From the NCBI GenBank assembly GCA_947626715.1, contig CANQTG010000002.1, positions 1 through 64,000 on the forward strand: 64,000 nt of DNA, written 5' to 3'. The position numbers were made by a program, and so were the translations under genes. Source of the DNA: an uncultured Lachnospiraceae bacterium. GTDB lineage: Bacteria; Bacillota; Clostridia; Lachnospirales; Lachnospiraceae. Of the stretch, positions 7,562-42,508 are shown in pieces. Position 1 is the stretch's first letter. The number at the start of each line of letters is the position of its first letter. A model generated the notes under the pieces. That model was not told the DNA's origin, did no database searches, and saw nothing but the letters and a program-made list of their open reading frames with translations.

Positions 7562-7575
7562 GGAAGGAACGCAGT

Positions 7576-12767: not shown

Positions 12768-12789
12768 CAGGACAAAATTGCAAAAATCT

Positions 12790-12831
12790 GCGGGGGGGGG
12801 AGCAAAAAAATGCTAACTCCCCGCTTTTTTT
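12790..12831 (+). terminator. Rho-independent terminator containing a G9 run
   Basis: GCGGGG(G)nAGCA-aaaaaa-TGCTaacTCCCCGC followed by a T run. Confidence 0.7.
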
Positions 12832-12943
12832 GGAAAAAAGGAATCAAAAATTTAAAGAATTTCGCAAACATTTCCTATCTGCGCTGTGATATCGTATAAG
12901 CGTAACCAAAAGGCAAACCAAGAAACAGGGAGGAAAAACCACA

Positions 12944-14113: not shown

Positions 14114-14137
14114 GCGGTAAGGAAGATCAAAGACAGG

Positions 14138-14161
14138 CAGGCGGGAGCTCTCTCCCGCCTG
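14138..14161 (+). terminator. Intercistronic hairpin (CAGGCGGGAG-CTCT-CTCCCGCCTG)
   Basis: 10-bp perfect stem followed by TTTCC between binding-protein and ATPase genes. Confidence 0.7.
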
Positions 14162-14258
14162 TTTCCTAAGAGAAGGTATAAAAAGCCGCCTAAGGCGGGC
14201 GATATCCGGGCAAAAGGACTGCCCGGCCTGATTGATTAGATATTTGGAGGGATACAGT

Positions 14259-15800: not shown

Positions 15801-15803
15801 ACG

Positions 15804-16982: not shown

Positions 16983-17074
16983 CGCATACTAATAATATAA
17001 TAAAGATAGGATCAAGACCCGCCTGCGGGTCTTGGCGCAAAGGATATGACAGGGATTTCTTCCCGATATCTAAT

Positions 17075-17112
17075 CAAAAAAGAGTTCCCGGCTCTGCCGG
17101 GGCTCTTTTTTA
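17075..17112 (+). terminator. Rho-independent terminator
   Basis: AAAAAAGAGttCCCGGC-TCT-GCCGGggCTCTTTTTT. Confidence 0.85.
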
Positions 17113-17125
17113 ATTGGGGAAAATG

Positions 17126-17137
17126 TGACAAATGTCA
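17126..17137. promoter_or_regulatory. Candidate operator palindrome TGACA-AA-TGTCA
   Basis: Perfect 5-bp arms upstream of the 17232 gene. Confidence 0.35.
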
Positions 17138-17231
17138 TATAAAAGTGATTACAAAAGACAGGTGCGCGGCGTTTAGATTTTCTCTATGATGAGCATGTAG
17201 TAGAAAACACCATCTTAGGGAGGAAAGAGAA

Positions 17232-18302: not shown

Positions 18303-18361
18303 GAAACGCTGTGAAACGCGGGATCTACATGCGGCGGCGTAAAAGGTAAATAAAAAGCGGT

Positions 18362-18397
18362 ACGGGCCGTATAAACGGAAAACGCTTATGCGGCCCG
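18362..18397 (+). terminator. Intercistronic hairpin ACGGGCCGTATA...TATGCGGCCCGT
   Basis: 12-bp stem (one GU) followed by CTGTTTT. Confidence 0.65.
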
Positions 18398-18458
18398 TCT
18401 GTTTTCAAAGGCCATGTCTTTTCATTGGCCTGACGCGGAAAGAAGGAGGAGACGGGGC

Positions 18459-19943
<1,485 letters not shown>

Positions 19944-19969
19944 GAAACGGATAAGGAGGAGAATGATCT

Positions 19970-20977
19970 ATGGCTTCGGGAAAAGAAAACGAAAAACAGG
20001 TTACTGCCGGTTCCCGGTTTGTGAAAGCGGCGAAGATATACGGAAAGGAAAATCTGGGGATCATACTGGCGCTCTTGGTGCTGTGTATCTTTCTGGCGGT
20101 CAATCCGCTCACCAGTAGTTCCTTTTTGACACAGAAAAACGTATTTAACGTACTCAGGCAGATATCGACCAACCTGTATCTGGCCTGCGGCATGACGATG
20201 GTCATCATTTTGGGCGGTATCGACCTTTCCGTCGGCTCCATCATCGCCCTTTCCGGCTGCGTAGCCGCGGGCTGCGTATCCAGATACGGCCTGCCGCTGC
20301 CGGTCGCGCTGCTGTGCGGCGTGCTGATCGGCCTGATCGTCGGTATGTTCAACGGCTGGGTCATTGCCAAGACGACGATCCCGCCCTTTATCGTAACGCT
20401 GGCGACCATGAATATCGCGAAGGGGCTTGCCTACGTCTATACGGGCGGCTCGCCGGTGCGTGTCGTGACGAAGGAATGGCAGTTTGTCGGTGCGGGTTAT
20501 ATCGGCCCGGTCCCGACCCCGGTCTGCATTCTGGCACTGGTACTGATCATAACGGCCATTATCATGAATAAGACGAAGCTCGGGCGGCATATGTACGCGG
20601 TCGGCGGCAACGCGCAGGCGGCGGAATTTTCCGGTATCAGCGTAGCGAGAGTCAAATTCCTCGTACATACCTATTCCGGTATCATGGCGGGCCTTGCGGG
20701 TATCGTGCTGGCTTCCCGTATGTATTCGGGGCAGCCGACGGCGGGGGACGGCGCGGAGATGGACGCGATCGCGGCGGTCGTGGTCGGCGGTACGAGTATG
20801 GCCGGCGGCTCGGGCAAGATCGGCGGCACCATCATCGGCGGCCTGATCATCGGCGTATTGAACAACGGCTTAAACCTGATGAACGTCAACTCTTTCTGGC
20901 AGTACGTCGTAAAGGGCTGCGTGATCCTGCTGGCAGTCTATTTAGACTATATCAGAAATAAAAAATCCAAGCTGTAA
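19970..20977 (+). CDS. Sugar ABC transporter permease (RbsC-like)
   Basis: GGIDLSVGSIIALSGCVAA, AVGGNAQAAEFSGI. Confidence 0.93.
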   Translation: MASGKENEKQVTAGSRFVKAAKIYGKENLGIILALLVLCIFLAVNPLTSSSFLTQKNVFNVLRQISTNLYLACGMTMVIILGGIDLSVGSIIALSGCVAAGCVSRYGLPLPVALLCGVLIGLIVGMFNGWVIAKTTIPPFIVTLATMNIAKGLAYVYTGGSPVRVVTKEWQFVGAGYIGPVPTPVCILALVLIITAIIMNKTKLGRHMYAVGGNAQAAEFSGISVARVKFLVHTYSGIMAGLAGIVLASRMYSGQPTAGDGAEMDAIAAVVVGGTSMAGGSGKIGGTIIGGLIIGVLNNGLNLMNVNSFWQYVVKGCVILLAVYLDYIRNKKSKL

Positions 20978-21018
20978 GAGCTGTAAAAATTTCAGGATTG
21001 TAGTAAAATAAGAAGTAA

Positions 21019-21050
21019 GCGCCTGGTATTCTATCGGATGCCGGGCGCAT
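21019..21050 (+). terminator. Hairpin separating transport and sensory genes
   Basis: GCGCCTGGTAT...ATGCCGGGCGC then ATTTCTT. Confidence 0.5.
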
Positions 21051-21081
21051 TTCTTCCTATCGGAATGGGCGGTGAGGGACG

Positions 21082-22035
21082 ATGCGGGAGAGGTGTCTTA
21101 GGGCGGCGCTGGTACTTGGGCTGACGCTGGCGGCGCTCGTATGCGGCTGCAGCGGTCAGGAGAGAGCGGATGCGCCGCGCGGGCCGCAGAAATTCGGCGC
21201 GACCTATATGACGATGAATAATCCGTATTTTCAGGATATGAACGCGCAGATCGAGGAGATCGTGGAGGCGAACGGCGATATCCTGATCTACCGGGATCCC
21301 GCGCAGGATCAGGAGAAGCAGAACGAGCAGATCATGGACATGCTGGAAGAGGGCATTACGGGGCTGTTTTTGAACCCGGTTAACTGGGAGACGGTCAGGC
21401 CCGCTTTGATCGCCTGCAAGGAGGCGCAGGTGCCGGTGTTCGTCATAGACACAAATGTCTATGACGACGAATACGCCGTATTTTCCATTCTTTCGGACAA
21501 TTACGACGCGGGCGTACAGTGCGCGCGGGATATGATGAAAAAGAAGGACCATGCGCGTATCGTGGTCATGGATTCCCCGGGGACGAAGTCCATCGACGAC
21601 AGGGTGCAGGGCTTTGTGGATACCATCGCGGGCAGCCCGGATTACGAGATCGTCACGCGCCTGCACGGGCGGGGCGAGCTGGAGGTCTCGATGGACGAGA
21701 TGGAAAAGCTCTTAGACGGCGGCGCGGCCTTCGACGTGGTGCTGGGCGGGAACGACCCTACGGCGCTGGGCGCTCTGGCGGCCCTGCAGATGAACCAAAT
21801 GCAGGACGGTATCCTGATCTACGGGATAGACGGCTCGCCGGACGGAAAAGTCATGATAAAGGAGGGCTATATGGAGGGGAGCTGCGCGCAGCAGCCGCTT
21901 CTCATCGCGCAGGAGGCGCTGAAGATGGCCTATGATTATCTGGACGGGAAAGAGGTCGAAAAGCTCGTGATCGTGCCGGTCACGATGATCACCAGAGACA
22001 ATATCGACCAGTTCGATCTTGCCGGGTGGCAGTAA
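21082..22035 (+). CDS. Sugar-binding lipoprotein, paralog of the 17232 protein, putative sensor component
   Basis: VCGCSG lipobox; shares GGNDPTALGALAA and YGIDGSPDGK with the 17232 product. Confidence 0.88.
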   Translation: MRERCLRAALVLGLTLAALVCGCSGQERADAPRGPQKFGATYMTMNNPYFQDMNAQIEEIVEANGDILIYRDPAQDQEKQNEQIMDMLEEGITGLFLNPVNWETVRPALIACKEAQVPVFVIDTNVYDDEYAVFSILSDNYDAGVQCARDMMKKKDHARIVVMDSPGTKSIDDRVQGFVDTIAGSPDYEIVTRLHGRGELEVSMDEMEKLLDGGAAFDVVLGGNDPTALGALAALQMNQMQDGILIYGIDGSPDGKVMIKEGYMEGSCAQQPLLIAQEALKMAYDYLDGKEVEKLVIVPVTMITRDNIDQFDLAGWQ

Positions 22036-22047
22036 GGGGCGGGATAA

Positions 22048-23373
22048 ATGGAAAAGCTGAAATTACGCGATATCAGGATCGTTATGCTGGCGGTCAATTT
22101 CATTGCGGTGCTCGCCGTGACCTTTTTTATCGCCGTGACGACGCAGCGTATCTGCGGCGATTACCGGGCGCGGGAATTTTTAGACGCGGTGCACGCGCTT
22201 CCGGGGGGGGAGCCGTGGCATATCGTGATCGTGTCCGCGGCGCTGTATCTTGCGTTAGCCTTTACGATCGTCGTGCAGGAGCGCTATTATACCGGGCAGA
22301 CGAAAAAGCTCTATATCTCTCTGGCGGCGGAATTTGCGCTCAGCGCGCTGATCGCCGTGCTGCTGAACTTTAATTACAACGGCGTGTTCCTGCTGGTCTT
22401 TACCGGCGTGATCTATTACGCGAAGGGGACGAAGGGGAAGTATCTGCTGATCTGTCTGGCGCTGTTCTGCTTTCTGCTGACGGATTCCAAGCTGGTCTCG
22501 CTCAGCTATCCCCTGTATTCCATCAACGATTATTTCAGCTATTACGACGCTTCCATGCAGCAGTATCTCGTGGGCGGCTACAGTCTGTTGAGCTCCCTCA
22601 ATATTATCCTGTTTATCATCTATTGTATCCTGATGATCCAACAGCAGCAGGGCACGATCGACGAGGTAAACATGCTCTATGAAGAGATCCGCAAGACGAA
22701 CGAGGACTTAAAGAACGCGAACAATCAGTTAGAGGAGTATGCGAAGATCACGGAGCGCATGGGCGAGGTAAGGGAACGGAACCGGATCGCGCGGGAGATA
22801 CACGATACGCTGGGGCATACGCTGACGGGGATCTCGGTCGGCGTGGACGCGTGCATTGCGACGGTGGAGCTCTCCCCCTCGGACGCGAAGGAGCACTTAA
22901 AGCGCATTTCCGAGGTGGCGCGCAACGGGCTTTTGGACGTGCGCCGCTCGATCAACGAGCTAAAGCCGGATTCGCTGGAGCGGCTCAGCTTAGAGAGCAG
23001 CATTACCAAGATGATCACGGACATGAGATCCATCACGGACATGGAGATCTTTTTCGACTGCCGGATCCCGCGGCTTAAATTTGACGAGGACGAAGAGAGC
23101 GCGATCTACCGGGTGATCCAAGAGAGCCTGACGAACGCCATGCGCCACGGGAAGGCGAGCCGGGTGCGTATCGTGATGGAGAGAGTGGAGGATACGGTCG
23201 TTTTGACGATTCAGGACAATGGGATCGGCTGCGCCGAGATCAAAAACGGGTTTGGTACCAAACATATCATGGAGCGTATCGGTATGCTGAACGGGACGGT
23301 GGAATTTCGAAGCGAGAACGGATTCAGCGTGATCGCCAGAATACCGATCAGATGGGGTGAGGAATATGATTAA
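22048..23373 (+). CDS. NarL-type sensor histidine kinase (multi-TM, HisKA_3)
   Basis: RNRIAREIHDTLGHTLTGISVGVDACI; HATPase DNGIGC. Confidence 0.95.
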   Translation: MEKLKLRDIRIVMLAVNFIAVLAVTFFIAVTTQRICGDYRAREFLDAVHALPGGEPWHIVIVSAALYLALAFTIVVQERYYTGQTKKLYISLAAEFALSALIAVLLNFNYNGVFLLVFTGVIYYAKGTKGKYLLICLALFCFLLTDSKLVSLSYPLYSINDYFSYYDASMQQYLVGGYSLLSSLNIILFIIYCILMIQQQQGTIDEVNMLYEEIRKTNEDLKNANNQLEEYAKITERMGEVRERNRIAREIHDTLGHTLTGISVGVDACIATVELSPSDAKEHLKRISEVARNGLLDVRRSINELKPDSLERLSLESSITKMITDMRSITDMEIFFDCRIPRLKFDEDEESAIYRVIQESLTNAMRHGKASRVRIVMERVEDTVVLTIQDNGIGCAEIKNGFGTKHIMERIGMLNGTVEFRSENGFSVIARIPIRWGEEYD

Positions 23374-24040
23374 AGTGCTGATCGCGGACGATCAGGAGCT
23401 GATCCGTCAGAGCCTGCAGATCGTCCTAAACACTAGAGAGGGGATCGCGGTGACGGATACTGTCGCGGACGGGCAGGAGGTCATACGCAGCATCCGCCGG
23501 GAGATGCCCGACGTGATCCTGATGGATATCCGTATGCCCAAGATGGACGGCGTACAGTGCACGAAGATCATCAAGGAGAATTATCCGCAGATCAAGATCA
23601 TTATCCTGACGACCTTTGACGACGATGAATTTGTGTATAACGCGCTGAAATTCGGGGCGAGCGGTTATCTGTTAAAGGGCGTGTCGATGGACGAGCTGGC
23701 GGACGCGATCCATACGGTATACAGCGGGCGCGCGATGATCAATCCCGATATCGCGACGAAGGTGGTAAAGCTGTTTTCCCAGATGGCGAAGGCGGACTAT
23801 ACCATTCCCGTCGAGGAACGCAACGAAGCGGAGCTGACAAAAACGGAATGGAAGATCATCGAGCAGGTGGAGTTCGGCGCTTCCAATAAGGAAGTGGCGG
23901 AAAAGCTGAACCTGTCGGAGGGGACCGTGCGCAATTACCTGAGCACGATCCTAAATAAGCTGGGACTGCGCGATCGGACGCAGCTTGCGATCTGGGCGGT
24001 GCAGACGGGCGTGAGCAAAAGAAAGCCGGATGAGATATGA
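23366..24040 (+). CDS. NarL/LuxR-type response regulator
   Basis: MIKVLIADDQELIRQSLQIVL..., LuxR HTH LTKTEWKIIEQVEFGASNKEVAEKLNLSEGTVRNYLSTILNKL. Confidence 0.96.
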   Translation: MIKVLIADDQELIRQSLQIVLNTREGIAVTDTVADGQEVIRSIRREMPDVILMDIRMPKMDGVQCTKIIKENYPQIKIIILTTFDDDEFVYNALKFGASGYLLKGVSMDELADAIHTVYSGRAMINPDIATKVVKLFSQMAKADYTIPVEERNEAELTKTEWKIIEQVEFGASNKEVAEKLNLSEGTVRNYLSTILNKLGLRDRTQLAIWAVQTGVSKRKPDEI

Positions 24041-25350
24041 GCGGAAAAAAGAAGATCGGCCTGCTTCTGGGGCTTTGTCTGGCGGCCGCGCTGTCGGCGG
24101 GGATATACGGCTATCTGCAGAGCAGGGTAAAGGTGCTGGAGGTCGGGATCTTTGCGGGCAGCAACTGGGACGTCGCCAATGCCAACAGCTATGTGATCAT
24201 CGATAAGGCTGTGGAGAAATTTGAGGCGGCGCACAAGAATGTAAAGGTGCATTATTACAGCGGGATCCGCAAGGAGAATTATTCGGAATGGTTTTCGAGG
24301 CAGCTCCTTCAGGGAAAGGAGCCGGACGTCTTTATGGTGCTGGGAGAGGATTTCAACCAGTTCGCGGAGATCGGCGTGATGAAGGACTTAGAGCCCCTGA
24401 TGGCAAAGGATCCCGAATTTGACGAGGGATCCTATTACTCGACGGCGCTTGGGGCGGGACAGTACAAGGGGCGGCAGTATGCGCTCCCCTACGAGACGGT
24501 GCCTACGCTGATGTTTGTCAACAAATCCCTGTTAAACCGCGAGGGGCTGTCCGTGCCGGACAATGACTGGACATGGGAGGATCTGTACCGTATCTGCCGC
24601 AGGGTGACGAAGGATAAGGACGGGGACGGGCTGCTGGATCAGTTCGGCACGTATAATTATGGGTGGATGGAAGCCCTCTATTCCAACGGGGCGAAGCTGT
24701 TCAATGAAAACGGGACGGAGAGCTATCTCAATGACGAGAAGGTGACGGAGGCCGTCAGGTTCGCCAGACAGATCGCCGCTTTAAACGGAATGCAGAAGGT
24801 GACGCGGGACGATTTCGACAGCGGCAGCGTCGCGTTCATGCCCCTGCCGTTTACGGAATACCGGACGTACAAGACCTATCCTTATAAGATCAAGAAATAT
24901 ACAAAGTTCCAGTGGGACTGCATTACCCTGCCGGCGGGAAAGGAAGGGGACAATACCTCGGTGATCGATACGCTGCTGATGGGGATCAGCAACCACACGG
25001 AGCAGGAGCAGCTCGCGTGGGAGTTTTTAAAGCTGCTGATCTTAGATGAAGAGATCCAGATGGATCTGTTCCGCTATTCGCAGGGCGTATCGGTGCTCAA
25101 GGAAGTGACCTGCTCGCAGGAGGCGGAGGAGATCCTGCAGGCGGATATGGAGAAGAATGAGAAATTTATCGACAATGCGCTGGTGAGCGACGTGATCGAG
25201 AACGGCGTCGTAACGCCTAAGTTCCTAAAGTATGCGGACGCGGTGGCGATGGCCGACAATGAGATCGACCGTATCGTCGAGGACGACGACAATATCGACA
25301 ATTCCATGCGGATCCTGCAAAGACAGATCAGCGCCTACCTGCGCAGGTAA
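24037..25350 (+). CDS. Extracellular solute-binding protein family 1, with N-terminal membrane anchor/signal
   Basis: KFEAAHKNVKVHYYSGIRKENYSEWFSRQLLQGKEPDVFMVLGEDF... Confidence 0.88.
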   Translation: MSGKKKIGLLLGLCLAAALSAGIYGYLQSRVKVLEVGIFAGSNWDVANANSYVIIDKAVEKFEAAHKNVKVHYYSGIRKENYSEWFSRQLLQGKEPDVFMVLGEDFNQFAEIGVMKDLEPLMAKDPEFDEGSYYSTALGAGQYKGRQYALPYETVPTLMFVNKSLLNREGLSVPDNDWTWEDLYRICRRVTKDKDGDGLLDQFGTYNYGWMEALYSNGAKLFNENGTESYLNDEKVTEAVRFARQIAALNGMQKVTRDDFDSGSVAFMPLPFTEYRTYKTYPYKIKKYTKFQWDCITLPAGKEGDNTSVIDTLLMGISNHTEQEQLAWEFLKLLILDEEIQMDLFRYSQGVSVLKEVTCSQEAEEILQADMEKNEKFIDNALVSDVIENGVVTPKFLKYADAVAMADNEIDRIVEDDDNIDNSMRILQRQISAYLRR

Positions 25351-25378
25351 GATGAAAATGAAAAAGGAGGAGATCATA

Positions 25379-26344
25379 ATGTCTGAAAAAAAATATGATG
25401 TGCTGGCGCTGGGAGAGCTTTTGATCGATTTTACGGAGAACGGGCTGAGCGCGCAGGGCAATCCAATGCTTGAGGCGAATCCGGGCGGCGCGCCCTGCAA
25501 CGTGCTGGCAATGCTGTGCCGTCTGGGGAAAAAGACCGCCTTTTTGGGGAAGGTCGGAAAGGATCAGTTCGGCGTAATGCTGAAAGGGGCGCTTGCGGAT
25601 GCCGGTATCGACACGGAGGGCCTGTATCTGGACGAGGAGGTGCATACGACGCTGGCCTTTGTCCATACCGCGCCGGACGGCGATCGGGACTTTGCGTTTT
25701 ACAGAAATCCCGGCGCGGATATGATGCTGACGGCCGACGAGGTGCGGGAGGATATGATAGAGGCGGCGAGGATCTTCCATTTCGGGACGCTCTCCATGAC
25801 GCACGCGGGCGTTCGGGCGGCGACCGAAAAGGCGCTGAAAGCCGCAAAGGAGAAGGGGCTTTTGCTCTCCTTTGATCCCAATCTGCGTCCCCCTTTGTGG
25901 AAGGATTTAGAGGAAGCGAGAGAGCGGATCCTCTACGGCCTCGGTCTCTGCGATATCCTAAAGATCTCCGACGACGAGGTGCTCTTTGTCTCCGGCGCTA
26001 AGAGCGTTGCAGAGGGCGCGGGGTGGCTGCGGGAGCGCTATCCGAATATCCGCCTTTTGCTGACGACGCTCGGGAAGGAAGGGAGCGTCGCGTATTACGG
26101 CGATCTCTGCGTAAAGGCGGAGCCGTTCTTAAACCCGAATACGATCGAAACGACGGGAGCGGGGGATACCTTCTGCGCCTGTATCTTAAATTATGTGCTG
26201 GAGCACGGCCTAGAGGGGCTGACGCAGGAGGATCTGGAGAAAATGCTGACGTTTGCAAACGGCGCTTCGAGCCTGATCACGACAAGGCGCGGCGCGCTGA
26301 AGGTAATGCCGAAAAAGGAAGAGGTCGAGGCGTATATCGGATAG
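25379..26344 (+). CDS. PfkB-family carbohydrate kinase (fructokinase-like)
   Basis: DVLALGELLIDFTENG, NPGGAPCNV, TTGAGDTFCACIL; RBS AAAGGAGGAG. Confidence 0.93.
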   Translation: MSEKKYDVLALGELLIDFTENGLSAQGNPMLEANPGGAPCNVLAMLCRLGKKTAFLGKVGKDQFGVMLKGALADAGIDTEGLYLDEEVHTTLAFVHTAPDGDRDFAFYRNPGADMMLTADEVREDMIEAARIFHFGTLSMTHAGVRAATEKALKAAKEKGLLLSFDPNLRPPLWKDLEEARERILYGLGLCDILKISDDEVLFVSGAKSVAEGAGWLRERYPNIRLLLTTLGKEGSVAYYGDLCVKAEPFLNPNTIETTGAGDTFCACILNYVLEHGLEGLTQEDLEKMLTFANGASSLITTRRGALKVMPKKEEVEAYIG

Positions 26345-26392
26345 GAAGATGTCTGCGAAAGCAGGCCCGGATCCCGCGCCAAGATTCGCGGG
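26339..26392 (-). repeat. Dispersed 54-bp repeat with internal hairpin, copy 2 (overlaps the end of the kinase gene)
   Basis: Reverse complement matches 714-767 at about 48/54 positions. Confidence 0.9.
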
Positions 26393-26531: not shown

Positions 26532-27872
26532 ATGCAGAGCTTTAACCCATTTGACGAAAAACCGATCCCGGTCGAGCGGTGGTTTATGGACTGGAATACC
26601 TTGTATCCGCGCCCATATAACAAGGATACCGCCAATCCCTATACAAAGTGCCGGGTCATTTTGATGAACGGTACGGAATTTGAGGCGCAGTGGTTCTCGA
26701 GAAATTTTTCGAGGCACTGCGGCGATAACGAGCTGCGGCGCAGGCTGGCGGTCATGCGCAGGAGCGAACAGCAGCAGCAAAAGCGCATTAGCGCGCTGAA
26801 ACCGAGAAACGAGAGCATTCTGGAGCATACCATCTCCTATGAACAGCTCGCAGTCGATCTGACCGCGGTGCTGGCAAAGCAGGAGACGGACTGTAACGTG
26901 AAAAACGCGCTGAATTTTGCGCTGCTCGAGGATTTTGACCATTTATACCGATATTCCGATCTGCTGGACTACGAATACGGGATCTGCCCGGAACGTCTGG
27001 TAGGCGGCTATACGGAGATCACGCCGGCGAGGCCGACGATCTCCCATCACAGATATCCGACGGATTCCATCTTTTGCAGCGTCTGCGGCAATGCCCCGCT
27101 CCAGACCAAATTAAACGTCAATATCATCACGGCGGCGGAGCAGCAGACCATGAATTACTATATGAACGTGGCGAATCTTTACGACAGGTCCGAGCTGGGC
27201 AGGCGCATGTATCAGGAGATCGGCATGATCGAGGAAGAGCATGTCAGCCAGTACGAGAGCCTGCTGGATACGGACGCGACGTGGCTGGAGAATCTGCTGC
27301 TGCACCAGTATACGGAATGCTATCTGTATTATTCCTGTATGCAGACCGAATGCGACCAGACGATACGCGGTATCTGGGAGCAGTGTCTGGTACAGGAGAT
27401 CGCCCATCTGCATATGGCGAAGGACCTGCTGTGGGAGTACGAGAAGAAGGATTGGAGACAGGTGATCCCGCGCGGGGATTTCCCGCAGATCATAAACCTG
27501 CGCCCGAATATCGAATATGTGCGTGAGATCATACGCACGACGACGGGTAATACCCAGAAAAAGGAAAACGTGGTGCCGCTCTTGCAGCTTGCGCCCGACG
27601 ATAAGTTTTTCTGGTATCAGGAGACGGTAAACTGCGATACGGGAAGCGTGGCGAGCCATCGCGTGATCTGCCAGCGGATCGCGCGCCGGGGCAGCGATTA
27701 CCGTTATGAGATTGCGCCCAGCCCGCTTTGCGAGCTGCGCGACCGCAGGTGCGACAATACGCAGCTTGGCAGAGAGACGGCGGCTACGCCCGCCTCGGCT
27801 CAGGTATGCGGCGCTACGCGGGGAGAGTGCAAGTGCGCGATGAACACGGAATGCGGCCCTGTCATGTATTAA
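26532..27872 (+). CDS. Uncharacterised ferritin-like (putative diiron helical-bundle) protein
   Basis: Three E...(D/E)xxH helix-pair motifs: YEQLAVDL/LLEDFDHL; AAEQQTMNYY/MIEEEHVSQY; LHQYTECYLYY/LVQEIAHLHMAKDLL. Confidence 0.6.
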   Translation: MQSFNPFDEKPIPVERWFMDWNTLYPRPYNKDTANPYTKCRVILMNGTEFEAQWFSRNFSRHCGDNELRRRLAVMRRSEQQQQKRISALKPRNESILEHTISYEQLAVDLTAVLAKQETDCNVKNALNFALLEDFDHLYRYSDLLDYEYGICPERLVGGYTEITPARPTISHHRYPTDSIFCSVCGNAPLQTKLNVNIITAAEQQTMNYYMNVANLYDRSELGRRMYQEIGMIEEEHVSQYESLLDTDATWLENLLLHQYTECYLYYSCMQTECDQTIRGIWEQCLVQEIAHLHMAKDLLWEYEKKDWRQVIPRGDFPQIINLRPNIEYVREIIRTTTGNTQKKENVVPLLQLAPDDKFFWYQETVNCDTGSVASHRVICQRIARRGSDYRYEIAPSPLCELRDRRCDNTQLGRETAATPASAQVCGATRGECKCAMNTECGPVMY

Positions 27873-28004
27873 AGAAGGAAAGAAGGGGCAAGCGGCGCGG
27901 TCTGTAAGGGGCCGCGCCGCCCGTGCGTTTCCCGATCGAAAATTTTTAAAAGAATCTGAAATTTTACTATCATATTTTGAAAAGATGTGATAGAATAGAG
28001 ACAT

Positions 28005-28078
28005 GGAAGCATAGCTCAGCTGGGATGAGCGCTCGCCTGACTAGCGGGAGGTCAAGGGTTCGAGCCCCTTTGCTTCCA
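28005..28078 (+). tRNA. tRNA, anticodon GAC (Val by code), no encoded CCA
   Basis: Acceptor GGAAGCA/TGCTTCC, D stem GCTC/GAGC, anticodon stem CTCGC/GCGGG with loop CTGACTA, T arm AAGGG-TTCGAGC-CCCTT, then a T run. Confidence 0.85.
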
Positions 28079-28304
28079 TTTTTTGTCCCGTTAAACGGGG
28101 AAGGGAGAGGACGCGCGGGGAGAGCGCGCCGTGCAATGTTCCGCTTATGGCGCAAGAAATGTTATCCCAAAAGCAAGAAATGTAAAGAAATAAAAAGCGG
28201 ATGCACTTATAATCATACATATAAGGTATCAACGCGCAGGCGGCTGGAAGGAGCCGCGCGCGCGGGGAAACAAGCAAAAAACAAAGTGGAAAAGGAGGAA
28301 GAAC

Positions 28305-33006: not shown

Positions 33007-35130
33007 ATGAAAAGAGAAGAAGCAAGGCAGAGGGCAGAGGAACTTGTAGGGAAGATGACGTTGGAAGAGCGCGCGAGCCAGCTTCGTTACGACGCGCCGG
33101 CGATCCGCAGGCTGGGCATTCCGGCTTATAACTGGTGGGGAGAGAGCCTGCATGGCGTGGCAAGGGCGGGAACCGCTACGGTGTTTCCGCAGGCGATCGG
33201 CATGGCGGCGGCGTTCGACGAGGAGCTGATCGGGGAGGTCGCGGACTGTATCGCGACGGAAGGCAGGGCGAAATACAATGCGTTCTCCGCCCATGACGAC
33301 AGGGATATCTATAAAGGACTGACCTTCTGGTCGCCGAACGTGAATATCTTCCGCGACCCGAGATGGGGACGCGGCCACGAGACCTACGGAGAGGATCCAT
33401 ATCTGTCCTCGCGGCTCGGCGCGGCCTATGTAAAGGGACTTCAGGGAGACGGAGAGACCATGAAGGCGGCGGCCTGCGCAAAGCACTTCGCGGTCCATTC
33501 CGGGCCGGAGGCGCTGCGCCACGAATTTGACGCGCGCCCTACGCCTAAGGATATGGAAGAGACCTATCTGCCCGCCTTTGAAACGCTGGTAAAGGAGGCG
33601 CATGTGGAAGCGGTCATGGGGGCGTATAACCGCGTGAACGGCGCGCCGTGCTGCGGCAGCAAGGAGCTGCTGACGGATATCCTGCGGGAGAAATGGAAGT
33701 TTGAAGGGCATGTCGTATCGGACTGCTGGGCGGTACGGGATTTCCATGAGCACCATATGGTAACGTCCACGGCGGCGGAGTCGGCGGCGATGGCGATCAA
33801 CGCCGGCTGCGACTTAAATTGCGGCAATACCTATCTCCATATCCTGACGGCGTACCAGCAGGGGCTGGTCACGGAAGAGGCGATCACGGAAGCGGCGGTG
33901 CGCCTGTATACAACGCGGTATCTGCTGGGGCTCTTTGACGAGAGCGAATACGATACGATCCCGTATGAAACGGTGGAGTGCCCGGAACATCTCGCGCTGG
34001 CGGAAAGGGCGGCGCGGGAAAGTATCGTCATGCTGAAAAACGACGGGCTTCTGCCCCTTAATCCCCACAAGATCAAAACGATCGGCGTGATCGGGCCGAA
34101 CGCCAACAGCAGAAAGGCCCTAGTCGGAAACTATCACGGGACGGCCTCCGAGTATATCACCGTACTGGAGGGGATCCAGAGGTATGCGGAAGGGAAGGCA
34201 AGAGTCCTGTATTCCGAAGGCTGCGATCTGTTCCGGGATCGGACGGAAGCGCTGGCGGAGGCGGGGGACCGCCTGACGGAGGCGCAGATCGTGGCGGAGC
34301 ACAGCGACGTGGTCGTCTTGTGTCTGGGACTGGACGAGACGCTGGAGGGCGAGGAAGGGGATACCGGAAACAGCTACGCTTCCGGCGATAAGGAGGATCT
34401 GCTGCTCCCGAAGCCGCAGAGGGCGCTGATGGAAGCGATCGCCCAAACCCAAAAACCGGTCGTGCTCTGCCTGATGGCGGGCAGCGCGATCGACCTGAGC
34501 TATCCGCAGGAGCATTTTAACGCGATCCTGCAGCTGTGGTATCCGGGCGCAAGAGGCGGAAAGAGCGCGGCCGATATCCTGTTCGGGGAGGTCTCCCCTT
34601 CCGGCAAGCTGCCGGTCACCTTCTATAACGATCTGAAAGAGCTGCCTGACTTTACGGATTACCGTATGGAAAAGAGAACCTACCGTTATATGGAAGGAAA
34701 AGCGCAGTATCCGTTCGGCTTCGGCCTGACCTACGGGGACGTGGTCGTGACAGAGGCGGAGGCGTCGGTGGAGAGAGACGGCGGAACGGACGATCTTGGC
34801 CTGCCCAGCGTGCGCGTTCGGGTGACGGCGGTCAATCGGGGCGGACGGGATACGGATGAGGTCGTGCAGATCTACGTAAAGAGCGAAGAGAGTGCGGATG
34901 CGGCGCGCAATCCGGCTCTGTGCGCGTTCCGGCGCATTCATGTAAAGGCCGGGGAGCACGTGGATACGGAGCTTGTAATCCGCGGCAGGGCGTTTACGGT
35001 TGTAAACGAGAAGGGCGAGAGGAAAAAGGGCGGAGCACGCTTCACCCTCTACGCCGCCGTTTCGCAGCCGGATGAAAGAAGCGCGGAGCTGACGGGGACA
35101 AGGCCGGTCGCGCTGCAGCTTGTGTTGTAA
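33007..35130 (+). CDS. Glycoside hydrolase family 3 (beta-glucosidase/xylosidase-like), no signal peptide
   Basis: NIFRDPRWGRGHETYGEDPYL, KHFAVHSGPE, VVSDCWAV, C-terminal FnIII-like region. Confidence 0.93.
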   Translation: MKREEARQRAEELVGKMTLEERASQLRYDAPAIRRLGIPAYNWWGESLHGVARAGTATVFPQAIGMAAAFDEELIGEVADCIATEGRAKYNAFSAHDDRDIYKGLTFWSPNVNIFRDPRWGRGHETYGEDPYLSSRLGAAYVKGLQGDGETMKAAACAKHFAVHSGPEALRHEFDARPTPKDMEETYLPAFETLVKEAHVEAVMGAYNRVNGAPCCGSKELLTDILREKWKFEGHVVSDCWAVRDFHEHHMVTSTAAESAAMAINAGCDLNCGNTYLHILTAYQQGLVTEEAITEAAVRLYTTRYLLGLFDESEYDTIPYETVECPEHLALAERAARESIVMLKNDGLLPLNPHKIKTIGVIGPNANSRKALVGNYHGTASEYITVLEGIQRYAEGKARVLYSEGCDLFRDRTEALAEAGDRLTEAQIVAEHSDVVVLCLGLDETLEGEEGDTGNSYASGDKEDLLLPKPQRALMEAIAQTQKPVVLCLMAGSAIDLSYPQEHFNAILQLWYPGARGGKSAADILFGEVSPSGKLPVTFYNDLKELPDFTDYRMEKRTYRYMEGKAQYPFGFGLTYGDVVVTEAEASVERDGGTDDLGLPSVRVRVTAVNRGGRDTDEVVQIYVKSEESADAARNPALCAFRRIHVKAGEHVDTELVIRGRAFTVVNEKGERKKGGARFTLYAAVSQPDERSAELTGTRPVALQLVL

Positions 35131-35157
35131 AGACACCGGAAACGTAAAAGACGCTGT

Positions 35158-35229
35158 AAAATAAGAAGAAAAGCTCCTTTTCCGTTACAAAGGGATCGGG
35201 CCGCGCGGGTATCGGCGCGGCCTTTCCTT
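35158..35229 (+). repeat. 72-bp direct repeat, left copy (terminator-bearing)
   Basis: Two mismatches to 38612-38683. Confidence 0.95.
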
Positions 35230-35271
35230 TAGGAAAGAAAAAAATAAGTTAAATAAGTTGGGCGAGGACGT

Positions 35272-35976
35272 ATGTATACGATCGGAATATGTGATGACGG
35301 CAGGAATGTCTGCGATTCCATTGAGAATATGCTCGAACGATATGCGCAGGAAAAGAATGTCCGGTTAGATATCAGTGCGTGGTATACAGGAGAGGATCTG
35401 ATGGACAATCTGGTATCAGGCCATCATCTGGATATTCTTTTTCTGGATATAGAGCTGGTCAATATGACCGGAACGGAAGTCGGCGGTTATATCAGGAATC
35501 AGCTTGACGATATGGGAATGCAGATTATTTATATCTCCGGAAAATCATCCTATGCGCAGCAGCTATTTAAAACGCAGCCCATAGATTTTCTGGTCAAACC
35601 GATCTCCCAAAAGCAAATCTATGAGGTTATGGATACCGCCGTCAGGATCATAAAAAGGAAAAAAGAAAGGTTTGAGTTTCAGCAGGGAAAAGATTACTAT
35701 TATGTTCCTATGGGCGATATTATTTACCTGCAGAGCGAAGGGAGAAAGGTAAAGGTCATATCTCAAAAGACATCATTTGAATACTATGGAAAATTGAGCG
35801 AAGCCGCAAAACAGTTATCCGGGGATTTTATCAGGATACATAAATCGTTCATCGTCAACAAGGAATATGTCTTTCGATATACCTATGAGACAGTGGAGAT
35901 GATAGATGGAACGATCTTCACGATCAGTATGGCAAACCGAAAAAATGTAAGGGACAGGATTTTGAAGGAAGAATAA
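35272..35976 (+). CDS. LytTR-family response regulator (AgrA-like)
   Basis: MYTIGICDDGRNVCDSIENML, LDILFLDIELVNMTG, C-terminal LytTR domain. Confidence 0.93.
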   Translation: MYTIGICDDGRNVCDSIENMLERYAQEKNVRLDISAWYTGEDLMDNLVSGHHLDILFLDIELVNMTGTEVGGYIRNQLDDMGMQIIYISGKSSYAQQLFKTQPIDFLVKPISQKQIYEVMDTAVRIIKRKKERFEFQQGKDYYYVPMGDIIYLQSEGRKVKVISQKTSFEYYGKLSEAAKQLSGDFIRIHKSFIVNKEYVFRYTYETVEMIDGTIFTISMANRKNVRDRILKEE

Positions 35977-35978
35977 CG

Positions 35979-37250
35979 ATGCCTGATGTTATCATGTGCT
36001 TATTAACCAATCTTTTCCGAATATTTCTTATTGACAGATGTGTGTCGTTCTTTATGGAGGAATATGCCGACGGAAGGAAGCGTTTCCTTGTCTGCGCCTG
36101 CTTTTATCTTATAAACGCCGCGACATTTTTAGCGTTCCATACCGTGTGGTTGAATATGCTGTGCAACCTCGCTGGGATCTGCGCGATTGCACGGCTGTAT
36201 ACCAAATCTGTCAGGTCAATTCTGTTTGTGTCCGGTACGGTTTATCTGGTAAACTGCGGATGCGATGTAGCCGCAACCTCTCTGTTTGTCACTTACCGCG
36301 ACGGGGAATCGTTCAGTCAGATTTATGCGGTTCTTTCCGTCCTTTTGTTTTTCATGTGCGTCCTTCTGATAAAAAGGATACTTACCGCTCGTAAAGGCAT
36401 GGAAACCGTTCCCAGCTTCCAGTTGCTTTTTATGCCCTTGTGCAGCATTACAGTCGTTATACTGCTGATCTATTTTGGCGGCTGTTCTCATATCGGGCTT
36501 GTGATCGTGAGCGTCGGCCTGCTGGTCATGAATTATCTCATGTTATATCTGTATAATCAGCTTCTCCTTACGACCGCGCAAAAATACGAAACAAAGCTGC
36601 TGCAGACACAGGTATCAGAGTATGCCAATCAGCTTAAGATCATCCTGCGCGGGGAGGAAAAGATAAAGGCTCTGCGGCATGATATGAAGCACCATCTCAA
36701 TGAATTAACGCTGCTTGCGAAGAAACATGAGGTATCTGAAATTCAAAATTATCTTGACCAGATGAAGCAGTTTGTCGAGAATCAGGACGAACTCATTGCT
36801 TCAGGAAATATGGAAATTGACAGTGTGCTGAATTATATGCTGCAAAAAGCAAAAAGAGAGCTGGAAACTGTGACGATAAAGGTGGCGCTGCCGGAAAAAG
36901 TAAGACATTCCTTCGACGTCAATGTTTTGCTGGGAAATCTGCTTGAAAACGCGATGGAGGCGGCCAGAGAAACGGACAAGAAATATCTTAGCGTCCGCGT
37001 CGCATTAAAAAAAGGGGTTTTAAGGATCAAAATCGAGAACAGCTTTTTGCCTTCCTGTCTCATCCGCGGGAACGAGCAGGGAAAGCCTCCGGCGCTTCTG
37101 ACTTCCAAAGCGTCTGCGGATTCGCATGGAATCGGGCTGGGCAACGTAAAGAAAATCGTAGAAAAGTATAACGGCACGATGGAGATCACAACGCGGAACG
37201 ATATTTTTTGTGTGAATCTGATCCTGTATATGGCGAAGATGGAAAAATGA
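35979..37250 (+). CDS. GHKL-domain sensor histidine kinase (AgrC-like)
   Basis: Multi-TM N-terminus; ALRHDMKHHLNELTLLAKK; VLLGNLLENAMEAA; DSHGIGLGNVKKIVEKYNG. Confidence 0.94.
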   Translation: MPDVIMCLLTNLFRIFLIDRCVSFFMEEYADGRKRFLVCACFYLINAATFLAFHTVWLNMLCNLAGICAIARLYTKSVRSILFVSGTVYLVNCGCDVAATSLFVTYRDGESFSQIYAVLSVLLFFMCVLLIKRILTARKGMETVPSFQLLFMPLCSITVVILLIYFGGCSHIGLVIVSVGLLVMNYLMLYLYNQLLLTTAQKYETKLLQTQVSEYANQLKIILRGEEKIKALRHDMKHHLNELTLLAKKHEVSEIQNYLDQMKQFVENQDELIASGNMEIDSVLNYMLQKAKRELETVTIKVALPEKVRHSFDVNVLLGNLLENAMEAARETDKKYLSVRVALKKGVLRIKIENSFLPSCLIRGNEQGKPPALLTSKASADSHGIGLGNVKKIVEKYNGTMEITTRNDIFCVNLILYMAKMEK

Positions 37251-37472
37251 GGATAATACTTCTCAGGCGGCGGCAAAGCGGCAGAGGCACGACGGCATAC
37301 AGGTCATGTCTTTTTTATTTTTGACAGAAATGTATATCATTTTTGTCATGAAACGGCGCTCCGATCATTTTTGTGATAAGCTCCTTTTGTTCATACAGGC
37401 AGACAAGAATCCTTATGCGTGAGATTTTTCCGTGGATTCTCTGTCATTCAATAATGAAGGAGGTCGCGATTT

Positions 37473-38612
37473 ATGAGCACTACTTATGCAAAGAGAGCGC
37501 AGATGAGAAAAGGATTGGCGGTTTTAACGGCTATGGCCTTTTGCGCCGCGGCATTGACAGGCTGCACGCACAGATCCCAAGCCGAAGATCCGTCAAAGAG
37601 TGAAGCGGATAGCGCCGGCGCTGCCGCTCAAGATACGAAAGTTAATATCGACGGCGGAGCGCAGCAGGAAGCGGACGCTGCCGGCGAGATCTTGGACACC
37701 GCTATTTTCCTTGACGAAAAACTGGACGAGAACCTATTCGTCAAAGCCGAGCTTAAAATGCCGGAGGCGACGCTCTACGAATATACGACGCGGTTGAAAA
37801 CCTTTGATCTTGCAAAAGCGCAGGAAGCGATACAGCAAAACGGAGAAGGAATTATCTCCGGCGATATTGGCTCTCTTTCTTATCAAAGAAACGATATGGC
37901 AGGCCATCTGGACACCTATTGCTCCTTTGCGGGGGAACAAGGGCTGGCAGATGAGAAGGAGTTGTCGTTTATGTCCCAAAAGGACGCCGTCGCAAGAGTC
38001 CAGAATTTGATAGACCAGTTGGAGATCGGCGGGCAATTAGGGACTCCGAAAGTAGTTGCAATGAACCGAACGGATTTTGAAAATGTAAAAAACGCAATCC
38101 TGACGGATGATACTTATCAAAAAATCCTTCCGTCGAAGGGGTATGAAAGCGACGTGTTTGACGAAAATCTGGAAGCGTACCGTATGGAATTTGGAATGGA
38201 GACAAACGGGATCCCGTTGTATGGACGCGATGATCCTCCTGTCAGGTCGGGCGGCGGAGTTATGGCGTTTCAGGTCAGCGTAACGGTATTGTTATCAAAC
38301 AGCGGCATGGAAAAGGTCGATATCATAGGGGCGCTGGAGCCCTTCGAGAATCAGCAGAAACGGGCGGATATCATCGGCGCGGAAGGGATCAAGGACGCAT
38401 TGATGTCAAAATACGGCGATGTGACGTTGTCGGAGGAATATCGAGCAGAAAATATCTGGCTGGAATATTTTCCGAGCCGAAGCGAAGGCTCTATTGAAAA
38501 TGTCGCTTTGGTTCCGGTGTGGTGCGTCGATTTTGCGATAGGAGGCAATACGGTCGAGGATTCCCAGTACACGCTTCGGTTTCATGCGGTCACGGGAGAG
38601 GTAGTTTCATAA
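37473..38612 (+). CDS. Hypothetical lipoprotein with C-terminal PepSY-like segment
   Basis: AALTGCTHRSQ lipobox; C-terminus VALVPVWCVDFAIGG...LRFHAVTGEVVS. Confidence 0.7.
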   Translation: MSTTYAKRAQMRKGLAVLTAMAFCAAALTGCTHRSQAEDPSKSEADSAGAAAQDTKVNIDGGAQQEADAAGEILDTAIFLDEKLDENLFVKAELKMPEATLYEYTTRLKTFDLAKAQEAIQQNGEGIISGDIGSLSYQRNDMAGHLDTYCSFAGEQGLADEKELSFMSQKDAVARVQNLIDQLEIGGQLGTPKVVAMNRTDFENVKNAILTDDTYQKILPSKGYESDVFDENLEAYRMEFGMETNGIPLYGRDDPPVRSGGGVMAFQVSVTVLLSNSGMEKVDIIGALEPFENQQKRADIIGAEGIKDALMSKYGDVTLSEEYRAENIWLEYFPSRSEGSIENVALVPVWCVDFAIGGNTVEDSQYTLRFHAVTGEVVS

Positions 38613-38683
38613 AAATAAGAAGAAAAGCTCCTTTTCCGATACAAAGGGACCGGGCCGCGCGGGTATCGGCGCGGCCTTTCCTT
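38612..38683 (+). repeat. 72-bp direct repeat, right copy
   Basis: Two mismatches to 35158-35229. Confidence 0.95.
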
Positions 38684-38705
38684 AGGGAGGAAAAGGAGCT
38701 GTTTT
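38622..38705. terminator. Large nested hairpin terminator between convergent genes
   Basis: Outer arms AGCTCCTTTTCC/GGAAAAGGAGCT, inner GGCCGCGC/GCGCGGCC, then GTTTTT. Confidence 0.8.
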
Positions 38706-38734
38706 TATTCAACGTTTTTTGCGCCGCGCCGCCG

Positions 38735-39745
38735 TTATCCGGCGCTTGCCGCGTTCTGCGCAAACTGTGTCGTGACCAGCTCGTCGTAGGGAACGCGCGC
38801 GGGGAGCTCGCCGGATTCCTCGAGGATATTTTCCAGCAGGATAAACGAATCCTCCGAAAAGACCAGATCCTTAGGCCAAGTATCCTGTCCGGCGTAACGG
38901 GCTACGATGGCGGTGATCGTAGAAAGGCCGGTCTCCTCAAACTGCGGCTGTATGACCTCTGCGATCTCTTCCGGGCTGTGGCTGTTCACATAATCAAGGC
39001 CGCGCTGCAGAGCGTTGGTAAAGGCCTGAACGGTCTCAGGATTTTCGCTGAGATAGGAGTTCTTGGCGCTGAAGGCCGTATAGGGGACATAGCCGGAGTC
39101 GGTGCCGAGGGACGCGACGACATAGCCGTCCCCCTTTTCTTCTAAGGAGGTGGCGTGGGGCTCAAATTCTACGGTAAACGTCCCCTGTCCGCCGGAGAAG
39201 GCGGCCGCCGTGGAGCCGAAATCAATGCTCCGGTCGATATTGAGATCCGTCTCGGGGTCGATATTATGTTTTTTCAGGATATATTCAAAGACCATTTCCG
39301 GCATACCGCCCGCGCGTCCGCCCAGCACGTCCTGCCCCTTTAGCATATCCCATGAAAAATGATCGACAGGCTCGCGGGAAACGAGGAAGTTTCCGGCGCG
39401 CTGCGTCAGCTGGGCGAAGTTGACGACGGGGTCGTCCGTGCCGCCCGCATAGGTATAGATCGACGCCTCGGAGCCCATAAAGCCGATATCCGCTTCTCCC
39501 GAGAGGACGGCGGTCATCGTCTTATCGGCCCCGAAGCCTGTCACGAGCTCTAGCTCGATTCCTTCCTCCTCAAAATAACCTTCCTCGATGGCGACATACA
39601 TCGGCGCGTAAAAGACGGAATGCGCCACCTCGTTGAGTACGACCTTCTTGGCCTGACCGCCTTTGGCCGCCGTCTGGCCGCAGCCCGTGACCGCGCACAG
39701 CAGCAGAGCCAGCACGAGCGCGGAACGGATAAATTTTCGTTTCAT
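38735..39745 (-). CDS. SsuA/TauA/NMT1-type substrate-binding lipoprotein
   Basis: CAVTGCGQ lipobox; FYAPMYVAIEEGYFEEEGIELELVTG. Confidence 0.9.
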   Translation of the reverse strand: MKRKFIRSALVLALLLCAVTGCGQTAAKGGQAKKVVLNEVAHSVFYAPMYVAIEEGYFEEEGIELELVTGFGADKTMTAVLSGEADIGFMGSEASIYTYAGGTDDPVVNFAQLTQRAGNFLVSREPVDHFSWDMLKGQDVLGGRAGGMPEMVFEYILKKHNIDPETDLNIDRSIDFGSTAAAFSGGQGTFTVEFEPHATSLEEKGDGYVVASLGTDSGYVPYTAFSAKNSYLSENPETVQAFTNALQRGLDYVNSHSPEEIAEVIQPQFEETGLSTITAIVARYAGQDTWPKDLVFSEDSFILLENILEESGELPARVPYDELVTTQFAQNAASAG

Positions 39746-39829
39746 AAATTGATTCCTCCCAAAATCGATCAAGAATAGTGTATAATCGTATTATATTGGG
39801 AAATTTGCAAAACGTGCGCGATATGGTAT

Positions 39830-40031
39830 GATAACGAGGAAAGTGCCGACGCCGCTTGCGGCAGTCGGGATTTGACGAGTGGCACCATCGAGACGACAGT
39901 CGAGAGGGAATGATAACGAGGAAAGCGCCGACGCCGCTTGCGGCAGTCGGGATTTGACGAGTAGCGCCATCGAGACGAGAGTCGAGAGGGAATGATAACG
40001 AGGAAAGCGCCGACGGCGCTTGCGGCGGTCA
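39830..40031. repeat. 82-bp tandem repeat, 2 full + 1 partial unit
   Basis: GATAACGAGGAAAG(T/C)GCCGACGCCGCTTGCGGCAGTCGG... starts at 39830, 39912 and 39994. Confidence 0.95.
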
Positions 40032-40057
40032 AAAAAAGAACGGGAGAAACGAAAACG

Positions 40058-42508
40058 ATGAGTATTTACGATACGCTGAATGAGCGGCAGAAAGAAGCGG
40101 TACTGCAGACGGAGGGGCCGGTGCTGATACTGGCGGGGGCCGGTTCCGGCAAAACGAGGGTCTTAACGCACAGGATCGCATGGCTGATAGACCGGTGCGG
40201 CGTGGATCCGTGGAATATCATGGCGATCACCTTTACGAACAAGGCGGCGGGGGAGATGCGCGCGCGGGTGGATCAGATCGTGGGATTCGGATCGGAAAAG
40301 ATATGGGTCTCGACCTTTCATTCGAGCTGCGTCCGTATCCTGCGCAGGTACATAGACAGGCTGGGATACGATACGAATTTTACGATTTACGATACGGACG
40401 ACCAAAAGACGGTGATGAAGGACGTCTGCAAGCGGCTGCAGATCGACGTCAAAATGCTGAAGGAGCGGACGATATTAAACGCCATATCCTCGGCCAAGAA
40501 CGAATGTATGACGCCGGAGGAATTTGCGCGCGCGGAGGACGGCGATTTTACCGGAAAGCGCATAGCCGAGGCTTATGCGGAATATCAGAGGACGCTGCGC
40601 AGAAACAATGCGCTGGATTTTGACGATCTGCTCCTAAAGACGGTGGAGCTCTTTAAGACCTGTCCCGAGGTGCTGGATTCCTATCAGGAGCGGCTGCGCT
40701 ATATCATGGTAGACGAATATCAGGATACGAATACGGTGCAGTTTGAGCTGATCCGGCTCTTGGCGGCAAAGTACAGGAATCTGTGCGTCGTAGGGGACGA
40801 CGATCAGTCGATCTATAAATTCCGGGGCGCGAATATCAGGAATATTCTGGATTTTGAAAAGGTATATCCCGAGGCGAAGGTCGTGCGGCTGGAGCAGAAT
40901 TACCGTTCGACTCAGAATGTGCTGGACGCGGCCAATGAGATCATCCGAAACAATGTCGGCAGAAAGGAAAAGCGGCTCTGGACGGATAAAGGGGCGGGCA
41001 GTCTGATCCATTTTCGCCAGTTCGATACCGCCTATGACGAAGCGGAGTTCATCGCGCAGGATATCGGGCAGAAGGAGCGCAGGGGAGCGCTGGAATACGG
41101 AGACTGCGCGGTGCTGTTTCGGACGAACGCGCAGGCGCGGCTCTTGGAGGAACGCTTTGTCACGGAGGGGATCCCCTATGACGTCGTGGGCGGCGTGAAC
41201 TTTTACGCGAGAAAAGAGATCAGGGATCTGCTTTCCTATCTAAAGACGGTGGATAACGGGAGCGACGACGTCGCGGTAAGGCGTATCATCAATATTCCCA
41301 GACGCGGTATTGGGGCGACGACGATCGCGCGGGTTCAGGAATATGCGAACGAACGCCAGATCAGCTTTTATGACGCGCTGCGGGAGGCGGATCAGATCGC
41401 CTCGCTTGGCAGGAGCGCAGCGAAGCTGGGATCCTTTGTCATGCTGATCCAAAGCCTGCGCGCGAAGGTGGAGCACTATGGAATCGCGGGGCTCCTTAGG
41501 GATATCATTGAGACGACGGGGTATGTGCGTGAGCTTGAAGATTCCGACGAGGACGACGCAGAGAGCAGGATCGAGAATATCGACGAGCTGATGAACAAGG
41601 TCGTTTCCTACGAGGAGAGCCATGAGGAGGCAAGTCTCAGCGGGTTCCTTCAGGAGGTGGCGCTGGTCGCGGATATTGATAACGTATCGCAGGAGGGCGG
41701 CCGCGTGCTGCTCATGACGCTGCACAGCGCGAAGGGGCTGGAATTTTCCGACGTATATCTCTCCGGTATGGAGGATGGGCTCTTCCCCGGCTATCTGACG
41801 ATCACCTCCGACGATCCGGCCGAGATGGAGGAGGAGAGAAGGCTTGCCTATGTGGGGATCACGCGGGCGAAAAAGGAGCTGACGCTGACCTGTGCCCGGG
41901 CGCGGATGGTGCGCGGCGAGACCCAGTACAATATGGTCAGCCGCTTTCTGCGGGAGATACCGGAATCCCTCTTAGATCATAAGTTGCCGGACAGAAAAGT
42001 GTGGGAATGGGAGAGCGGGGAGACGCTTTCTTTCGGCAGCTCTTACGGCGACGGTGTGTTTGTGACGGGCGGCCGGAGACGCGAAGGCAGCGCGTCTATG
42101 TCGGACAGTTGGGGACACGAAGGCGGCGCAGCGGTAGCGGGCGGCCGTAAGCCCTCTTCCGACGGCTTTTATACGGCCTCCGCTCCAGAGGACGGGATCG
42201 GGCAGACGAGGCCGTCCGTCGATACAAGGCCGCGTCCAAAGGCGGTCTGGGCGCCCCGCCGGACGGCGGAAGAAAACAAGCCCTTCCTGACCAAAGCGTC
42301 CGCGGGTCTTTCCGGTCTTTCAAAGGGCGCGCCCGCGGGCGGGCGGCCCGATTACGAGGAGGGCGACCGGGTAAGGCATATCAAGTACGGCGAAGGGACC
42401 GTAACAAAGATCGAAGAAGGCGCGCGGGATTATCAGGTCACGGTGGATTTTGACAGCGCGGGCACGAAGATCATGTACGCCGCCTTTGCGAAGCTGCGCA
42501 GGGTGTAA
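40058..42508 (+). CDS. pcrA: ATP-dependent DNA helicase PcrA/UvrD
   Basis: LNERQKEAVLQTEGPVLILAGAGSGKTRVLTHRIAWLI, VDEYQDTN, LMTLHSAKGLEF; ATG at 40058. Confidence 0.96.
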   Translation: MSIYDTLNERQKEAVLQTEGPVLILAGAGSGKTRVLTHRIAWLIDRCGVDPWNIMAITFTNKAAGEMRARVDQIVGFGSEKIWVSTFHSSCVRILRRYIDRLGYDTNFTIYDTDDQKTVMKDVCKRLQIDVKMLKERTILNAISSAKNECMTPEEFARAEDGDFTGKRIAEAYAEYQRTLRRNNALDFDDLLLKTVELFKTCPEVLDSYQERLRYIMVDEYQDTNTVQFELIRLLAAKYRNLCVVGDDDQSIYKFRGANIRNILDFEKVYPEAKVVRLEQNYRSTQNVLDAANEIIRNNVGRKEKRLWTDKGAGSLIHFRQFDTAYDEAEFIAQDIGQKERRGALEYGDCAVLFRTNAQARLLEERFVTEGIPYDVVGGVNFYARKEIRDLLSYLKTVDNGSDDVAVRRIINIPRRGIGATTIARVQEYANERQISFYDALREADQIASLGRSAAKLGSFVMLIQSLRAKVEHYGIAGLLRDIIETTGYVRELEDSDEDDAESRIENIDELMNKVVSYEESHEEASLSGFLQEVALVADIDNVSQEGGRVLLMTLHSAKGLEFSDVYLSGMEDGLFPGYLTITSDDPAEMEEERRLAYVGITRAKKELTLTCARARMVRGETQYNMVSRFLREIPESLLDHKLPDRKVWEWESGETLSFGSSYGDGVFVTGGRRREGSASMSDSWGHEGGAAVAGGRKPSSDGFYTASAPEDGIGQTRPSVDTRPRPKAVWAPRRTAEENKPFLTKASAGLSGLSKGAPAGGRPDYEEGDRVRHIKYGEGTVTKIEEGARDYQVTVDFDSAGTKIMYAAFAKLRRV

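Follow-up and report, generated by a model that had tools for sequence, protein, structure and literature searches.

How did a three-gene cluster come to lie between two nearly identical 72-bp direct repeats on a contig of an uncultured Lachnospiraceae bacterium? To answer this we asked for the 64,000-nucleotide stretch of DNA analyzed here (the window) (i) whether the DNA between the repeats is of foreign origin, (ii) what the repeats themselves represent, and (iii) by which route the cluster was acquired and what it may do in its present place. The explanation that we consider fairly probable is that part of an agr-like locus obtained by horizontal transfer landed in the bidirectional terminator after a GH3 glycoside hydrolase gene and that 72 bp of this terminator were duplicated around it.

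The Repeat Pair

The two repeats (35158-35229 and 38612-38683, both on the plus strand) are identical at 70 of 72 positions and lie 3454 bp apart from start to start, as had been claimed in the original prediction. A position-by-position comparison placed the mismatches at position 28 (T/A) and position 39 (T/C). The repeat search of the window reports the pair as 35158-35234 and 38612-38688, the right copy being recovered by repeat search, BLAST, and alignment alike, and beyond the outer edges of both 72-bp copies the identity drops sharply to chance level.

Two copies of the element were found by BLAST in the whole 2.65 Mb genome (second copy E = 1.1e-29), and its inner hairpin likewise occurs twice when up to three mismatches are allowed (control pattern: 0). 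In a family-wide search of 397 genomes the examined matches to the 72-bp element were short chance matches, mostly intragenic. The two genomic copies and the nature of the family-wide matches rule out an ordinary dispersed terminator repeat, the reading that the original prediction had set against its own.

Gene Content and Probable Foreign Origin of the Cassette

The three genes between the repeats are of the kinds originally named, all on the plus strand: an AgrA-like response regulator with receiver and LytTR domains (35272-35976; Pfam LytTR 1.3e-15, Response_reg 1.7e-12), an AgrC-like GHKL receptor histidine kinase (35979-37250; HATPase_c_5 2.3e-20), and a lipoprotein (37473-38612). The lipoprotein is full length and weakly DUF6034-like, with a Pfam match under the cut-off of that family, and has a YycI-like predicted fold (assignment by Pfam, structure model, and relatives). 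A literature search on DUF6034 found nothing of use.

The composition of the cassette (35230-38611, plus strand, GC 0.458) was compared with its surroundings, a check that had been proposed at the outset. GC3 is 0.49 for the AgrA-like gene and 0.56 for both the AgrC-like and the lipoprotein gene, as against 0.70-0.77 for the GH3 gene, the ABC genes, the gene at 38735, and other window genes in a comparison that leaves out pcrA. The best relative of the AgrC-like kinase in its own genus has 38% identity, and those in two other genera reach 62% (G062) and 55% (G300). Because of the low GC3, the nearest relatives in other genera, the switch of sequence at the stop codon that forms the right end, and the cassette-free relatives in the genus (both described below), the interpretation of 35230-38611 as a recent insertion is well supported. 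Since the genome assembly is split into 162 contigs, a misassembly is still conceivable. A phage or plasmid origin was rejected, as no viral or plasmid matches were found with scans that, for viruses, detect close relatives only.

The Ends of the Cassette

In five relatives (G296, G300, G215, G295, and G033) the lipoprotein gene is followed by the permease and ATPase genes of an exporter in the order permease-permease-ATPase. In G062 the stop codon of the lipoprotein gene overlaps the permease start (TTTCATGAGCAG). The window reads TTTCATAAAAATAAG at that overlap: the break falls inside the overlap, and the right repeat begins there. The right end of the cassette is thus a truncation point located exactly at the lipoprotein stop codon, and the ABC exporter genes are missing. 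A search of the genome for a permease, run with no positive control, came back empty.

At the left end the picture is less clear. In G300 a conserved operator (see below) lies upstream of agrA and none is present there in the window, but G255, G684, and G692 also have no operator before agrA. The first eight bases of the repeat, AAAATAAG, recur just inside the left end of the cassette, a possible microhomology.

Terminator Structure of the Two Copies

The right copy was claimed to be part of a complete nested hairpin, and this is what folding returned. Its sequence extends into an outer stem of 12 perfectly matched base pairs (AGCTCCTTTTCC...GGAAAAGGAGCT, then GTTTTTATT); the remainder of the terminator occupies 38684-38709 (plus strand), with the outer right arm at 38689-38700. 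The minimum free energy (MFE) of the nested hairpin is -50.6 kcal/mol, with z-scores of -6.5 (plus strand) and -4.6 (minus strand). The right copy is a bidirectional terminator, serving both converging genes.

The left copy holds the outer left arm and the inner hairpin and has neither the outer right arm nor the U tract. It folds into the inner hairpin alone (-32.2 kcal/mol, z = -3.0) and by score is still a weak terminator-like site. The proposal that it stops after the inner hairpin agrees with the absence of GGAAAAGGAGCT downstream of it; a decayed full second terminator was also rejected, as no right arm could be aligned there (449/2000 shuffles score equally well).

Outside the repeats, CGTAAAAGACG at 35143-35153 (plus strand) can form 11 pairs with 38713-38723 on the other side of the cassette. 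By helix length this pairing is matched or beaten by 18/5000 shuffles and 93/5000 real 27-mers, and by folding energy it is not significant (33/500 shuffles; 226/1000 real 27-mers); it is weak evidence that the two flanks may once have belonged to one ancestral terminator. The 3' flank of the GH3 gene of G143 weakly resembles the left repeat (5/1000 shuffles). On the strength of these two observations the terminator is probably native to GH3. An origin with the SsuA-like gene on the other side was ruled out, genus relatives carrying unrelated sequence at that place.

Genomic Context and the Search for an Empty Site

The GH3 gene (33007-35130, plus strand; Pfam) is the last gene of a sugar ABC/AraC/GH3 block and has a host-like GC3 of 0.746. 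The same block is found in another genus (G143:C83; permease 91%, GH3 80% identity), in other context and with no cassette. On the right side the minus-strand gene at 38735-39772 encodes an NMT1/SsuA-like substrate-binding lipoprotein and was classed as a backbone gene from Pfam and its relatives: most of the nine genus relatives searched have an orthologue at about 80% identity, near pcrA. The window also has a tandem repeat between this gene and pcrA (39819-40064), in which an 82-bp unit containing a GC-rich hairpin is present in two full copies and part of a third.

Among the nine genus relatives no close homolog of GH3 was found, and at the SsuA-like locus the cassette is absent, so that it is not a shared feature of the place. 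In three of them (G001, G002, and G007) the orthologue of the gene at 26532-27872 converges on the SsuA-like gene, with unrelated intergenic sequence. As GH3 is missing from the genus relatives and this other gene faces the SsuA-like gene there, GH3 is itself a newcomer and the adjacency of GH3 and SsuA is derived. For the same reason the whole block from the tRNA-Val gene (28004-28079) to 38612 is lineage-specific. The empty site that the original prediction had suggested looking for, i.e., GH3 followed by one full terminator and the 38735 gene, was not found, the genus relatives having no GH3 at this locus. Of the claim that the cassette had split a terminator between convergent GH3 and SsuA-like genes, the foreign insert with partial terminator duplication was supported, but the two genes are not old neighbors. 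When GTDB genomes were scanned with the protein of the 38735 gene, 80 loci were returned; the neighbors, compared in 33 of them, varied widely, and none of the matches listed for these 33 loci had the cassette beside the homolog.

Further features of variable content were seen to the left. The tRNA-Val(gac) gene at the left edge of the block was not seen in the matching gap of G001, G002, and G007. In G007 the DUF1836 gene (6908-7561) directly adjoins the PfkB gene (25232-26344), and the region that separates them in the window, 7562-25231 (17.7 kb of sugar-transport and two-component genes), thus looks to be another block specific to this lineage. Around this variable region lies a 55-nt inverted repeat (715-769 and 26337-26391; 91% complementary, 25.6 kb apart), each arm of which is a hairpin.

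Route of Entry and Alternative Explanations

The inserted fragment would consist of the agrA-like and agrC-like genes, the operator, and the lipoprotein gene, the ABC exporter genes having been lost. No recombinase was found by Pfam among the three cassette genes, the element has no further copies, and the right end is truncated; for these reasons uptake by host recombination or repair is favored over transposition of its own. Capture driven by homology or microhomology appears the most likely entry route, either by a single crossover of a circle sharing the 72 bp or by template switching at microhomology.

The exact start of the right copy where the exporter genes are missing would also fit a history in which a longer locus arrived first and the 72 bp were duplicated later, when a repair event deleting the exporter placed a copy of part of the nearby GH3 terminator at the lipoprotein gene's end, or vice versa. 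We regard this order of events as unlikely, since a left donor should be complete whereas the complete terminator is the right copy, beside the missing genes, and since a history in two steps is less simple.

Somewhat less likely still is a discrete mobile unit (integron-like or a trans-mobilized cassette) that recognizes the terminator hairpin, with the 72 bp as attachment site or target duplication. In its favor, the hairpin is strong, and the repeat begins right at the last gene's stop codon, which is the position expected of a recombination site carried by a cassette. However, integron and transposon cassettes come with a recombinase or with further copies of the recombination site, and neither was found with 35230-38611: the three genes include no recombinase, and the element is confined to its two genomic copies, with short chance matches alone in the 397 family genomes. 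Viral or plasmid relatives are lacking as well, and 72 bp far exceeds the target duplications that are usual in transposition.

That the left copy was preserved to serve agrA as a regulatory leader (attenuator), and the repeat pair by selection for regulation and not as an insertion scar, has the smallest probability of all, since, although the left copy fills half of the 141 bp separating agrA from GH3, retains a strong inner hairpin, and precedes a gene with no recognizable promoter or operator of its own, neither an alternative antiterminator structure or conserved leader nor a homolog with a comparable leader was seen, and recent duplication alone explains the 97% identity to the right copy.

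With insertion into the GH3 terminator as the preferred reading, the parts of this locus are of known kinds and the cut ends are unusually readable. The locus offers a snapshot of a bacterium acquiring an orphan peptide-sensing module in which both the cut ends and the struck terminator can be identified, and the flanking repeats predict a reversion that restores the terminator. As a highly speculative generalization, intrinsic terminators might act as landing sites that capture recombinase-free gene blocks by homology or microhomology: such a block would split the terminator, keep a complete one behind it, and hook up to transcription of the upstream operon via the crippled left copy, and it might be lost again through recombination between the two 72-bp copies. 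A literature search on gene capture at terminators found nothing of use.

Predicted Operator and Regulation

A predicted LytTR operator with two half-sites about 22 bp apart lies at 37324-37357 (plus strand), followed by a -10-like TGATAA at 37374-37379. It is one instance of a conserved 34-bp ungapped motif (approximately ACAAAAAyATA...TGACATGAArCGGC), the halves of which align best when offset by 22 bp. G300 has the motif at three places, ahead of agrA, of agrD, and of a third gene group; in G062 and in the window it precedes the lipoprotein gene. With a leave-one-out matrix built from the other sites the window's site scored 27.7 bits and the next best in the 64 kb 12.2 bits; sites matching the motif downstream of agrC in G255, G684, and G692 came up after this matrix scoring. 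Eleven bases of the terminator outer arm (AAGCTCCTTTT) occur again at 37378-37388, just past the -10-like box in the promoter of the lipoprotein gene, perhaps by chance.

According to a published report, AgrA of S. aureus binds a pair of direct repeats upstream of the promoters it controls (PMC4227749). A regulator-controlled promoter with paired direct-repeat sites is a feature of the agr system; by sequence the window shares it, in the conserved motif before the lipoprotein gene to which the regulator is predicted to bind. The motif provides a handle on the promoters under AgrA-like regulators of this branch in Lachnospiraceae.

In its present place the AgrC-like receptor would sense a peptide made elsewhere and phosphorylate the AgrA-like regulator, which would bind the 34-bp operator and switch on the lipoprotein gene; the right copy would end the lipoprotein transcript. 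Because the left copy has lost the outer stem and the U tract, GH3 transcription may run on into agrA-agrC.

Relationship to Known Systems

The cassette is an orphan agr-like system. As in agr (AgrBDCA; G300:C9 and G255:C55), a LytTR response regulator and a GHKL receptor kinase stand side by side in the same AgrA-AgrC order, with identities of 60/55% (G300) and 53/46% (G255) and a common operator motif, but the AgrB peptidase and the AgrD peptide of the agr locus are missing. With the NCBIfam AgrA model the regulator scores 53.5 bits, the cut-off of that model being 400. A hidden AgrD was rejected, as no AgrD-like frame was seen between the cassette genes. The genome has a single AgrB, which lies on contig C29 together with another AgrC/AgrA of its own, so the sensed peptide could originate from other cells. 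A comparable AgrA-AgrC-operator-lipoprotein order, with no AgrB in the stretch read, is present in G692, and orphan pairs of this kind thus recur.

In lantibiotic immunity the LanI lipoprotein is paired with the LanFEG exporter (PMC4828448). Relatives of the cassette resemble such modules in having two permeases and an ATPase encoded after a lipoprotein; the family that comes closest to this ATPase is TIGR03740 for lantibiotic protection (181 bits, cut-off 310). In the cassette, in contrast, the exporter beside the lipoprotein is missing, and the lipoprotein matches no LanI family.

The structure model of the lipoprotein (mean pLDDT 78) gave Foldseek matches to YycI (PDB 2o3o; E = 2e-5) and to 5coz (E = 1.9e-10), with moderate TM-scores (0.32-0.45 when normalized to query length and 0.45-0.51 when normalized to target length). 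YycI is a regulator of the WalK/YycG kinase, and 5coz is an uncharacterized protein of Eubacterium rectale. The likeness to both is in the predicted fold, and the cassette protein differs in being a lipoprotein. While the YycI-like fold and the lantibiotic-protection likeness of the ATPase are hints and not assignments, the model suggests that the lipoprotein may act outside the membrane as an accessory protein or sensor.
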